Below are positions 53,955 through 58,717 of a DNA stretch of 64,000 nt, piece after piece. Position numbers and translations under genes: made by a program. Below the pieces are notes generated by a model. That model was not told where the DNA came from. It searched no databases and was given only the letters and a program-made list of their open reading frames with translations. Position 1 is the first letter of the stretch, and each line of letters opens with the position of its first letter. This stretch comes from Collinsella ihumii (GTDB taxonomy: Bacteria > Actinomycetota > Coriobacteriia > Coriobacteriales > Coriobacteriaceae), in assembly GCF_900046475.1 (NCBI RefSeq), contig NZ_FCOU01000005.1, positions 1 to 64,000 on the forward strand, written 5' to 3'.

Positions 53955-55346
53955 TTAGGCCTCGATGGAGACCTCGACCTCCTGAACGGGGACGTCGTAG
54001 AACGGGTCCTCGCGGCGGCCGAGGAAGTCGCGCGCCTGATCAGGGAACAGGGCGTAGTCGAGCACGTCCTCCTCCGTCTTGGCGTACTGCTTGATCTCCT
54101 CGCGGATGCGCGGCAGCTGCGGCTCGATCAGGTCGGCCGGACGGCAGGTGATGGGCTCCTCGTCGCCGATGATCATCTGCTTGACCTCGGGGTCGATGGG
54201 CGCCGGGGACTTGCCGTACTGGCCGCGGACGTAGTCCTTGATCTCGTTCGGGACGACCTTGTAGCGCGCGCCGGACACAACGTTCATGAGCGCCTGGGAG
54301 CCGACCATCTGGGACAGCGGGGTGACCAGCGGCGGATAGCCCAGGTCGGCGCGGACGCGCGGCACCTCGGCGAGCACCTCGTTGTACTTGTCGGACACGC
54401 CCAGGTCGGCGAGGTTGGAGATGAGGTTGGACAGCATGCCGCCGGGAACCTTGTACAGCAGCGCCTTGGGCTCGACCTCCATGACCTTGGGGTTGAGCTG
54501 GCCGATCTCCTTGAAGTGGGCGCGCACGGGGGCGAAGTGCTTGGCGATGGCCTCGAGCGCGTCCAGGTCGAGACCGGTCTCATAGCCCATGCCCTCCAGC
54601 GCGATGGCCATGGACTCGGTGCAGGGCTGGGACGTGCCGCCCGCGAACGCGGAGATGGCGGTGTCGATGATGTCGGCGCCGGCCTTGACGGAGTTCAGCA
54701 GCGTCATCTCGGCGATGCCGGCGGTGCAGTGGGTGTGGACCTCGAGCGGCAGGTCCACGGCGGCCTTGATCTCGCCCACGAGCTCGGAGGCGATGCCCGG
54801 CTCGAGGACGCCGGCCATGTCCTTGATGCAGATGGTGTCGGCGCCGGCCTTGGCCATCTCCTTGGCGAGGTTCACGAAATACGGGATCGTGTGCACCTCG
54901 CTGGTGGTGTAGCAGATCGCGGCTTGGACCTCGCCGCCGGCCTCCTTGGCGGCGCGGATGGAGGTCTGCAGGTTGCGGACGTCGTTCAGGGCGTCGAAGA
55001 TGCGCAGCACGTCGATGCCGTTCTCGACGGACTTCTTGACGAACTCCTCGACGATGTCGTCGGCGTAGTTGCGGTAACCCAGCAGGTTCTGACCGCGCAG
55101 CAGCATCTGCAGCTTGGCGTTCTTCACGTGAGCGCGGAAGGTGCGCAGGCGCTCCCACGGGTCCTCGTTGAGATAGCGCAGGCACGAGTCGAACGTCGCG
55201 CCGCCCCAGACCTCGAGGGCGTAGTAGCCCGCCTTGTCCATCGTCTCCAGAATCGGCAGCATGTCCTCGATGGGCATGCGGGTCGCGATCTGGCTCTGCT
55301 GGCCGTCACGCAGGACGGTCTCGGTGAACTTGATCTGCTTGCTCAT
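53955..55346 (-). CDS. oadA: Oxaloacetate decarboxylase alpha subunit, carboxyltransferase
   Basis: 463 residues, TIM barrel of the pyruvate carboxylase/OadA/5S family: TETVLRDGQQS (metal- and substrate-binding), EVWGGATFD, LRGQNLLGYRNYADD and IKDMAGVLEP with the carboxyl-accepting lysine region. The C-terminal biotinyl domain of classic OadA is absent; the carrier is encoded separately at 57391-57821. It takes CO2 from oxaloacetate onto biotin. Located 3 nt after citX. Confidence 0.92.
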   Translation of the reverse strand: MSKQIKFTETVLRDGQQSQIATRMPIEDMLPILETMDKAGYYALEVWGGATFDSCLRYLNEDPWERLRTFRAHVKNAKLQMLLRGQNLLGYRNYADDIVEEFVKKSVENGIDVLRIFDALNDVRNLQTSIRAAKEAGGEVQAAICYTTSEVHTIPYFVNLAKEMAKAGADTICIKDMAGVLEPGIASELVGEIKAAVDLPLEVHTHCTAGIAEMTLLNSVKAGADIIDTAISAFAGGTSQPCTESMAIALEGMGYETGLDLDALEAIAKHFAPVRAHFKEIGQLNPKVMEVEPKALLYKVPGGMLSNLISNLADLGVSDKYNEVLAEVPRVRADLGYPPLVTPLSQMVGSQALMNVVSGARYKVVPNEIKDYVRGQYGKSPAPIDPEVKQMIIGDEEPITCRPADLIEPQLPRIREEIKQYAKTEEDVLDYALFPDQARDFLGRREDPFYDVPVQEVEVSIEA

Positions 55347-56184: not shown

Positions 56185-57330
56185 TTACATCAGACCGGGG
56201 ACGATACCCAAGATCAGACCACCGGCGACAACCGATGCGATCTGGCCGGCCACGTTAGAACCGGCTGCTTGCATGAGGATGAAGTTGCCGGGATCCTCTT
56301 CGGTGGCAAGACGCTGGATGACGCGGGAGCTCATGGGGAACGCCGAGATGCCGGACGCGCCGATCATGGGGTTGATCTTCTCCTTGCGGAAGATGTTCAG
56401 CACCTTGGCGAACATGATGCCGCCCACGGTGTCCATCACGAAGCCCAGAAGACCGAGGCCCATGATGATGAGCGTGTCGACCTGCAGGAACTCGCCGGCC
56501 TGCATGCGCACGGACACGCAGAGGCCCAGCAGGATGGAGATGAGGTTCACGAGCTCGTTTTGCGCGGACTTGGACAGGTTGTCCAGCACGCCGCACTCAC
56601 GCAGCAGGTTGCCGAACATCAGGAAGCCGACCAGCGGCAGCGAAGCGGGCGCAATCAGGCCGGCGACGATGCAGATAACGACCGGGAAGATGATCTTTGC
56701 GGTCTGCGAAACCGAGCCCGGCTTGTAGACCATGCGGATCTGGCGCTCCTTCTTGGTGGTCACGGCCTTGATGGCGATCGGCTGGATGATGGGCACGAGC
56801 GCCATGTAGGAGTAGGCCGCCACCATGATGGCGCCGAGGTATTTGGATTGCAGCGAGTTCGCCACGAAAATCGACGTGGGGCCGTCTGCCGCAGCGATGA
56901 TGCCGGCGGAGGCGGAGTCTGCCAGGTTGAAGCCGAGCAGGCCGGCGACGATGATGACGAAGAAGATGCCGAACTGGGCGGCGGCGCCGAACAGCAGCAA
57001 AAACGGGCTTGCCAGAAGCGGGCCGAAGTCGATCATGGCGCCGATGCCGATGAACAGCAGCAGCGGGAACAGCTCGGTGTCGATGCCCATGTCGAACAGG
57101 ATCTGGAACGGGCCGGGCTCTCCGCCGAAAGCGAGCACGCCGGAGTCGGGAATGTTCACCAGGATGGTGCCCAGACCCATCGGCACGAGCAGGGTCGGCT
57201 CGTATTCCTTCTTGATGCCCAGGTACATGAGCACGATGCCGACGAGCATCATGACGAGGCGGCCGGGCTCCGCAGCGAGCCCAAGCACGCCCGCAGTAAG
57301 CACGTCAACTGCGGTAGACAGAATTTCCAA
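56185..57330 (-). CDS. oadB: Sodium-pumping decarboxylase beta subunit
   Basis: 381 residues with about eleven membrane segments. Family-specific sequences include LLFIGIGAMIDFGPLL (carrying the conserved Asp of the Na+ site), ADGPTSIFVANSL and a C-terminal MQAAGSNVAGQIASVVAGG (the Asn/Ser Na+ site region). It decarboxylates carboxybiotin and pumps Na+. Equivalent proteins serve methylmalonyl- and glutaconyl-CoA decarboxylases; the cit context argues for oxaloacetate. Confidence 0.94.
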   Translation of the reverse strand: MEILSTAVDVLTAGVLGLAAEPGRLVMMLVGIVLMYLGIKKEYEPTLLVPMGLGTILVNIPDSGVLAFGGEPGPFQILFDMGIDTELFPLLLFIGIGAMIDFGPLLASPFLLLFGAAAQFGIFFVIIVAGLLGFNLADSASAGIIAAADGPTSIFVANSLQSKYLGAIMVAAYSYMALVPIIQPIAIKAVTTKKERQIRMVYKPGSVSQTAKIIFPVVICIVAGLIAPASLPLVGFLMFGNLLRECGVLDNLSKSAQNELVNLISILLGLCVSVRMQAGEFLQVDTLIIMGLGLLGFVMDTVGGIMFAKVLNIFRKEKINPMIGASGISAFPMSSRVIQRLATEEDPGNFILMQAAGSNVAGQIASVVAGGLILGIVPGLM

Positions 57331-57390: not shown

Positions 57391-57821
57391 TTAGGCGATG
57401 CTGAACAGCTCGTCGCCGGGGTTCACCATGTCGCCCTTGGCGACCGCGATGGACGCGATCTTGCCGTCGGACTCGGCGATGATCTGGTTCTCCATCTTCA
57501 TGGCCTCGAGCACCATGACGACCGTACCGTTGGAGACGGCGTCGCCCACGTTGAGCTTGATGTCAACGATCTTGCCGGGCATCGGGGCGGTCTGGACCTT
57601 GGCGCCGGCGGGAGCGCTGGCGGTCGCGGGTCGAGGCGACGTGCGCGAAAGGGGGTGAGGGGGCGGCGGGGTGACCGGCCATGTTGTACAGCTGTCTCTT
57701 ATACACATCTAGATGTGTATAAGAGACAGGCGTCAGCGGGAGTGGGGGTCGGCGCGCCGATCTCCTCCATCTCCACCATGTACTGGGTCCCGTCGATCGA
57801 GATCTTGAATTTGCGAAGCAT
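57391..57821 (-). CDS. Biotin carrier subunit of the decarboxylase, disrupted by sequencing adapter
   Basis: The N-terminus (MLRKFKISIDGTQYMVEMEE, ATG 57821 behind GGAGGAGG) and the biotinyl domain (QTAPMPGKIVDI..., VLEAMKMENQI with biotin-Lys) are both present, but they are separated at 57692-57729 by two back-to-back Tn5 mosaic ends. The segment just after the adapter (about 57640-57691) does not read as a sensible Ala/Pro linker in the carrier frame, so bases there may also be wrong. The true gene probably encodes about 130 residues. Carries CO2 between OadA and OadB. Confidence 0.85.
57692..57729. other. Tn5/Nextera mosaic-end pair, library artefact
   Basis: CTGTCTCTTATACACATCT (57692-57710) is followed immediately by its reverse complement (57711-57729). 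This is the 19-bp mosaic end of tagmentation adapters; translated, it gives the familiar peptide SYTHLDVYKRQ. It is not genomic. Confidence 0.97.
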
Positions 57822-57834
57822 GGTCCTCCTCCAA

Positions 57835-58179
57835 TTACTTTTTCTTGTAGACACCCTTGACTACGAACTGGCTGTTTTCCAAAGCGCCGGCGGCGATCGA
57901 CGAAGCGATGCACGATACGAGCCGGTGCTCGGGGTTCACGACGCTGACGCGGCGTACCACCATCTGGCTGTCGGGGCGATCCCCGGCGGCGATGGCCGTG
58001 GCGGCAACGACGACCGGACGATGCTCGGATGCGTCGACCGGCAGGAACGCGGGAACGGGTTCCCACTCCTCCTTGGGCGCCGCTGACGCGGCGGGCGCCG
58101 GCGCGGGCGCTGATACGGGAGCGGACGACGCCGCGCTGGGTTCGTCGTTTTTGCGCCTCAACCAATCAAAGAAGCCCAT
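57835..58179 (-). CDS. Small protein of the decarboxylase operon, function unknown
   Basis: 114 residues from ATG 58179. The N-terminus is short and basic-amphipathic (MGFFDWLRRKNDEP), followed by an Ala/Pro/Ser linker (about 15-45) and a conserved-looking C-terminal domain (about 55-114, with PVVVAATAIAAGDRP and VVKGVYKKK). It is the first gene of the operon, 13 nt before the biotin carrier. It may be a delta/epsilon-type accessory subunit as found in methylmalonyl-CoA decarboxylases, but I cannot show homology. Confidence 0.65.
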   Translation of the reverse strand: MGFFDWLRRKNDEPSAASSAPVSAPAPAPAASAAPKEEWEPVPAFLPVDASEHRPVVVAATAIAAGDRPDSQMVVRRVSVVNPEHRLVSCIASSIAAGALENSQFVVKGVYKKK

Positions 58180-58717
58180 ATATTCACTTCCCCTCGGTTT
58201 TTCCTCGGCAATCAGTGACTGATTACCCATTCAGACGTGCCGTGCCTCATTACAGTACCAACTTTATATGCGCGCTTGTACCGCTGATTGCACTTTCGTT
58301 GTTCACAGTGCCCAATACGTGCGCTTTTGTCTCTATCACCCCAAACTACCTCCCGTTTTCAACCACTTCATTCTACGAGCGGGAGCCGGCCTCCCTGCGT
58401 TTACCGTGGTTTTTCTCTGCCCTCTCACCGGCGAACGGTAGGGTTGGCGGAGTGAACGGTATCCGCTCTCCAGCTGCGTTTTTGGAGTTTTGCGTCCATG
58501 CGCTTTGACCTGCGGAGTTTATATTTATGCAGGTACCGGCTGTTTTTCTGATGTTCCTTCTACCAATCCTCAACAAAGTGCGCACGCAAAAACCGTTAAT
58601 TTGCTAACGAGCACACGGTACGCGCCGCTGGTTTTTTGCACGTCGCAGCTGCGTACGCCGTACCTGTATCTGTCGGTCTTAATAGGAAAAGGAAAAGGGA
58701 AAGGGAAGGGTGAAGTT
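58180..58717. promoter_or_regulatory. Divergent control region between decarboxylase operon and citrate transporter
   Basis: 538 bp without a supported gene; the frame that extends upstream from the transporter lacks a ribosome site. Contains a lone TTGTTC half-site near 58300, a small hairpin ACCTGC...GCAGGT (about 58509-58535), and a polypurine run (AGGAAAAGGAAAAGGGAAAG, from 58683) just before the transporter ribosome site. Both promoters must lie here. Confidence 0.5.

Follow-up and report, generated by a model that had tools for sequence, protein, structure and literature searches.

In the part of the NextClip paper that was available (PMC3928519), the junction in Nextera mate-pair libraries is described as two joined 19-bp adaptors, one forward and the other reverse complement, that are searched for as 38 bases, and chimeric inserts are given as a known fault of such libraries. 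The text obtained from PMC4074385 states that all proper fragments carry the junction adapter in the middle. PMC7357533 shows a 38-mer identical to the one reported below, there as a ring adapter with a biotin label that circularises fragments of ~4 kb, the kit being unnamed in the portion at hand. Across the partial texts retrieved from the literature, no single source was found that names Nextera and also prints the 38-mer.

The window, i.e., the whole stretch of 64,000 nucleotides that was analysed, carries two 19-bp mosaic ends back to back at 57692-57729. CTGTCTCTTATACACATCT is followed directly by AGATGTGTATAAGAGACAG, both exact, and with no spacer between them they form a single palindromic 38-mer that matches the dimer of the 19-bp adapter at 38/38 bases (Table 1). 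The 19-mer is known as the Tn5 mosaic end. At ≤3 mismatches these were the only two mosaic-end matches in the window; none arose in 100 shuffles of the sequence, in line with a chance expectation of none, and searching the whole window for the 38-mer at ≤10 mismatches gave no second site. Since the published descriptions of mate-pair libraries match an inverted 38-base pair, the element is assigned to a circularisation junction adapter and not to paired-end read-through. It is almost certainly a mate-pair circularisation junction artefact left in the assembly, not biology.

Table 1 Features of the adapter site and its surroundings as interpreted here (window coordinates)
Feature	Position	Strand	Evidence
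Decarboxylase alpha / carboxyltransferase subunit, neighbour	53955..55346	-	Pfam PYC_OADA E 6.2e-50, HMGL-like E 1.9e-21
Sodium-pumping decarboxylase beta subunit, neighbour	56185..57330	-	Pfam OAD_beta E 6.9e-146
Linker end and biotinyl domain of biotin carrier gene, EAMKMEN motif	57391..57633	-	Pfam PF00364 E 5.3e-18; relatives aligned
Misplaced 58-bp piece, likely an error-ridden copy of S-layer-homology coding DNA (G000:C3:238828-238885)	57634..57691	.	E 1.3e-10
Mate-pair junction adapter (almost certain), palindromic dimer of Tn5 mosaic end, foreign to the organism; 38 bp	57692..57729	.	Exact match
Left mosaic end	57692..57710	-	0 mismatches
Right mosaic end	57711..57729	+	0 mismatches
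N-terminal part of biotin carrier gene, cut where the Ala/Pro linker begins	57730..57821	-	81.8-95.9% DNA identity, eight aligned relatives, matched part only
Small ORF upstream of carrier gene, no Pfam match at E 0.001	57835..58230	-	ORF list, Pfam search

As written in the window, the biotin carrier gene is broken. Its N-terminal frame (from 57821, minus strand) reads MLRKFKISIDGTQYMVEMEEIGAPTPTPADA and then runs into a stop codon within the adapter, and the listed open frame with the biotinyl domain (57391-57708, minus) takes its ATG start from inside the adapter; the C-terminal piece matches Biotin_lipoyl. Strong matches to the carrier gene were found in nine relatives of the same genus, weaker hits (E ~1e-5 to 1e-3) being excluded, and eight of these relatives were aligned; the ninth (G022), with its match split over two contigs, was left unaligned. 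In seven of the eight, the gene is open over 117-143 codons and has an Ala/Pro linker at the position of the adapter. The eighth (G005) has a run of N within this linker, possibly a gap in the assembly or masked sequence. This run lies in locus L141 on G005:C3, and G022:C22 ends shortly past the biotinyl domain. The linker stretch seems hard to assemble. We infer that the carrier gene is almost certainly intact in the living cell.

The 58 bases to the left of the adapter (57634-57691) are identical to G000:C3:238828-238885, on another contig of the same genome, at 48/58 positions (83%), so the join is locally chimeric. The first 20 bases from the adapter match exactly; all 10 mismatches lie from base 21 onward, and nine of them read C on the gene strand of the window, a pattern that looks, from the sequence, like a failing read tail. 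The C3 segment encodes an S-layer homology (SLH) domain (PF00395, E 1.7e-21) and, on sequence grounds, is the likely source. A paralogue missing from the assembly, which would fit a C3 match of just 83%, is a lesser possibility. We also considered, and rejected, a paralogous S-layer-homology gene close to the operon as the source. A 114-residue query against the window, C5:40000-59000, C5:64001-74000, C3:229400-245400 and 17-20 kb round the gene in four relatives gave no hit other than the C3 source and the 58-bp piece. With no such gene near the operon, the read behind these bases most likely joined two different molecules. The far-near order expected of a single molecule is absent at this site, where the flanking piece is matched on contig C3. 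On C5, apart from the piece itself, the 58 bases have within 8 kb just one match, 14 bases long, and no displaced same-contig copy was found for the pieces beside the adapter.

Several statements of the initial annotation can be compared with these results. The inverted 19-bp mosaic-end pair that it placed inside the biotin carrier gene is there, exactly, on the strands given in Table 1, and the gene is broken by it as proposed, its N-terminal frame stopping inside the adapter. The assembly chimera that it suspected has been traced to the C3 segment, and its distrust of bases 57640-57691 was well placed, the measured boundary lying close by at 57634.

The genome to which the window belongs (G000; 2,836,446 bases, 35 contigs) holds 30 occurrences of the exact 19-mer at 20 places, every one of which (20/20) is a 38-mer dimer. 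At ≤3 mismatches the 38-mer is found at 28 places, 10 of them exact. The adapter-bearing contigs are C2, C3, C5, C8-C14 and C31. The adapter sites C3:369375 and C8:62182 have near-identical flanks (93% over 43 bp on the left, 99% over 140 bp on the right), and represent either a repeat with the artefact twice or a single read used twice. Among the 98 genomes searched, G000 counted in, six contain the 19-mer. In four of them (G021, G049, G063 and G078), 14 single mosaic ends on the plus strand all begin at contig base 1 and, judged from these plus-strand copies, look like ordinary untrimmed adapter. Genome G094 has ten mosaic ends, with copies inside contigs and none beginning at base 1, and two of them form a dimer (C7:116809-116846); another genome of the order thus probably carries this artefact too. 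In a species-genome scan, the exact 38-mer was present in at least 111 stretches of other bacteria, representing at least 18 organisms by title count, including cyanobacteria, enterococci, streptomycetes and Ideonella. It was also found in 5 of 72,556 plasmid records, and the E. coli genome collection gave no match to it.

In the mate-pair protocol, 19-bp adapters are added to both ends of a kilobase-sized fragment, which is then closed into a circle and sequenced across the junction. An untrimmed read would then run in the order far end, adapter, near end, and the piece left of the adapter should be a copy of downstream DNA, or the right piece a copy of upstream DNA. Thirty-four regions around known adapter sites of G000 were fetched, a sample and not a whole-genome census, and these contained 37 sites at ≤7 mismatches. 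Displaced copies were counted by a rule (≤5 bases from the adapter, 500-8,000 bases away) that was set after the hits had already been viewed. By this rule, 18 of the 72 abutting pieces, at 18/37 sites, have a displaced copy 1,773-6,750 bp away on the same strand of the same contig, and the sign of the offset agrees with the circularisation prediction in 18/18. The order and kilobase spacing of a mate-pair junction are thus present in this genome. As a control, pieces were taken at 740 random places within these regions; 24/1,480 had a displaced copy, and at least some of these resemble the source copies themselves, with mirrored offsets.

No displaced copy was found under the rule at the other 19/37 sites. 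Among the same-contig, same-strand hits that the rule excluded, five lie farther from the adapter, two of them with the predicted sign (C8:45431 left and C14:33924 right) and three with the opposite one (C10:147372 right, C14:33924 left and C10:162663 right). The other excluded hits have an offset of 117 bases in one case (C12:374489) and of roughly 100 kb in two (C10:50429). A whole-genome search for three sites agrees with the prediction, with displaced copies downstream at 3.2 kb (C11:23594), 4.0 kb (C10:50429) and 4.0 kb (C12:329310). The C10 site is collinear in 4/4 relatives, and the C11 site in G016, the sole relative with a long match. At C12:329310-329347, four relatives hold ~1.2 kb more between the adapter flanks (arithmetic on the alignment), and real sequence seems, from this comparison, to have been lost from the assembly. 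In the 111 stretches from other organisms, 138 exact 38-mers gave 276 pieces, among which 47 displaced copies were found; the sign was as predicted for 30 and opposite for 17. Some of the 17 sit between two adapters, and all 17 were kept in the count. With only 30/47 as predicted elsewhere, the displaced-copy order was dropped as a general rule across organisms and is claimed for G000 alone.

Three other explanations were weighed against a junction artefact. The mosaic ends could belong to a real chromosomal insertion, that is, an empty mini-Tn5 or another Tn5-type event in the living strain, since their orientation is that of mini-transposon ends in Tn5 geometry, here with zero cargo. However, the 9-bp flanks (GTTGTACAG and GCGTCAGCG) match at 3/9 positions and show no target duplication, and the best agreement over 36 measurable G000 sites is 6/9. 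The zero spacer leaves no cargo between the ends. A degenerate pattern designed for the native IS50 outside and inside ends, run as an exact pattern, matched the mosaic end alone in the genome. The numerous, scattered G000 copies with error-like mismatches and the scrap of DNA from elsewhere that adjoins the adapter also argue against insertion. The absent target duplication, cargo and native ends lead us to reject a Tn5 insertion, the chance of which we consider negligible. Natural occurrence was also called very unlikely in the initial annotation. Ordinary Nextera paired-end adapter read-through accounts for part of the observations. In the available text of PMC3906532, NexteraXT read-through sequences start with the identical 19 bases, and the copies at contig base 1 in G021, G049, G063 and G078 have this look. 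According to the same text, though, read-through runs from the 19-mer into index-side adapter sequence and not into its own reverse complement. The genomic DNA on both sides of the adapter, the exclusively dimeric places in G000 and the mate-pair order of all its displaced copies at kilobase spacing further speak against read-through, which is highly improbable. The initial annotation was therefore right to see a Nextera adapter artefact, but the dimers and the displaced-copy order indicate a mate-pair junction adapter instead of plain read-through.

A kilobase-scale misjoin, in which the gene halves come from different chromosomal places, would be in keeping with the 58 bases of another contig at the join and with the larger damage that occurs elsewhere in the genome, at C12:329310. 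Against it, the halves are those of one gene and adjoin in all eight aligned relatives, with matches of ~1.8-3.7 kb across the site. Moreover, the gene order over ~51.6-60.1 kb is identical in four relatives, and in three of them through 64 kb. Two of the four (G008 and G013) carry an additional ~3 kb close to 56.0 kb, at some distance from the adapter. On synteny, such a misjoin at 57692-57729 was rejected, and its probability is smaller still than that of read-through. Because the relatives keep both gene halves and the gene order, the contig can be judged correct on a kilobase scale, with ~96 bases (57634-57729) in error. The initial suspicion of the joined contig structure holds for these bases and overreached beyond them.

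We therefore return to the mate-pair junction artefact. Direct support for it comes from the identity of the adapter, its multiplicity in G000, the displaced copies in predicted order at other sites, the likely foreign source of 57634-57691 and the collinear relatives. The Ala/Pro linker of the carrier gene would be a hard GC-rich stretch that was bridged with an untrimmed mate-pair read. This read would have found its anchor in sound sequence at 57730 and then have run through the adapter into 58 bases of the S-layer-homology gene, and the assembly would have come back to the real gene near 57633. Most likely, the ~96 false bases are a GC-rich gap filled in this way.

The finding serves solely as a warning about assembly quality. 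A carrier gene that has a clear relative in each of nine genomes of its genus would be called broken, 58 bases of another gene would pass as carrier gene sequence, and false small open frames across the adapter could get annotated. With at least 28 such places in G000, claims of gene loss or duplication made from this genome need checking. Spurious open frames with the adapter translation VSYTHLDVYKRQ occur in the window at 57655-58086 (plus) and 57563-58165 (minus). Database entries that contain such a translated adapter would point to this type of artefact; a literature search for the peptide YTHLDVYKRQ found no papers. In G000, short false duplications are present at no fewer than 18/37 adapter sites; they copy DNA that lies 1.8-6.8 kb off, over matched lengths of 28-140 bp (pieces of 140 bp were tested). 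One adapter site marks DNA of another contig, and C12:329310 seems short of ~1.2 kb relative to four relatives. Junction adapters quite probably mark more than foreign letters, and scars with displaced copies may be usable to audit public genomes. If this is true, adapter scars could give the library fragment size and pinpoint exactly which bases are false.

In comparison with known systems, the 38 bases at 57692-57729 share the mosaic end sequence and end orientation with a Tn5 / IS50 or mini-Tn5 insertion, and differ from it in having no cargo, 9-bp target duplication or native ends. The interrupted gene resembles gamma-type biotin carriers of sodium-pumping decarboxylases in its biotinyl domain with the AMKM motif joined to an N-terminal segment, in the Ala/Pro linker of its relatives and in its alpha and beta neighbours, but here it is only apparently broken, through the artefact. 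The closest likeness is to the Nextera mate-pair junction adapter, with which the site shares a 19-mer joined to its own reverse complement and genomic DNA on both sides, and the genome displaced copies 1.8-6.8 kb off in the expected order at 18/37 sites. It differs in that the far-end piece at 57634-57691 comes from another contig and not from a few kilobases downstream.
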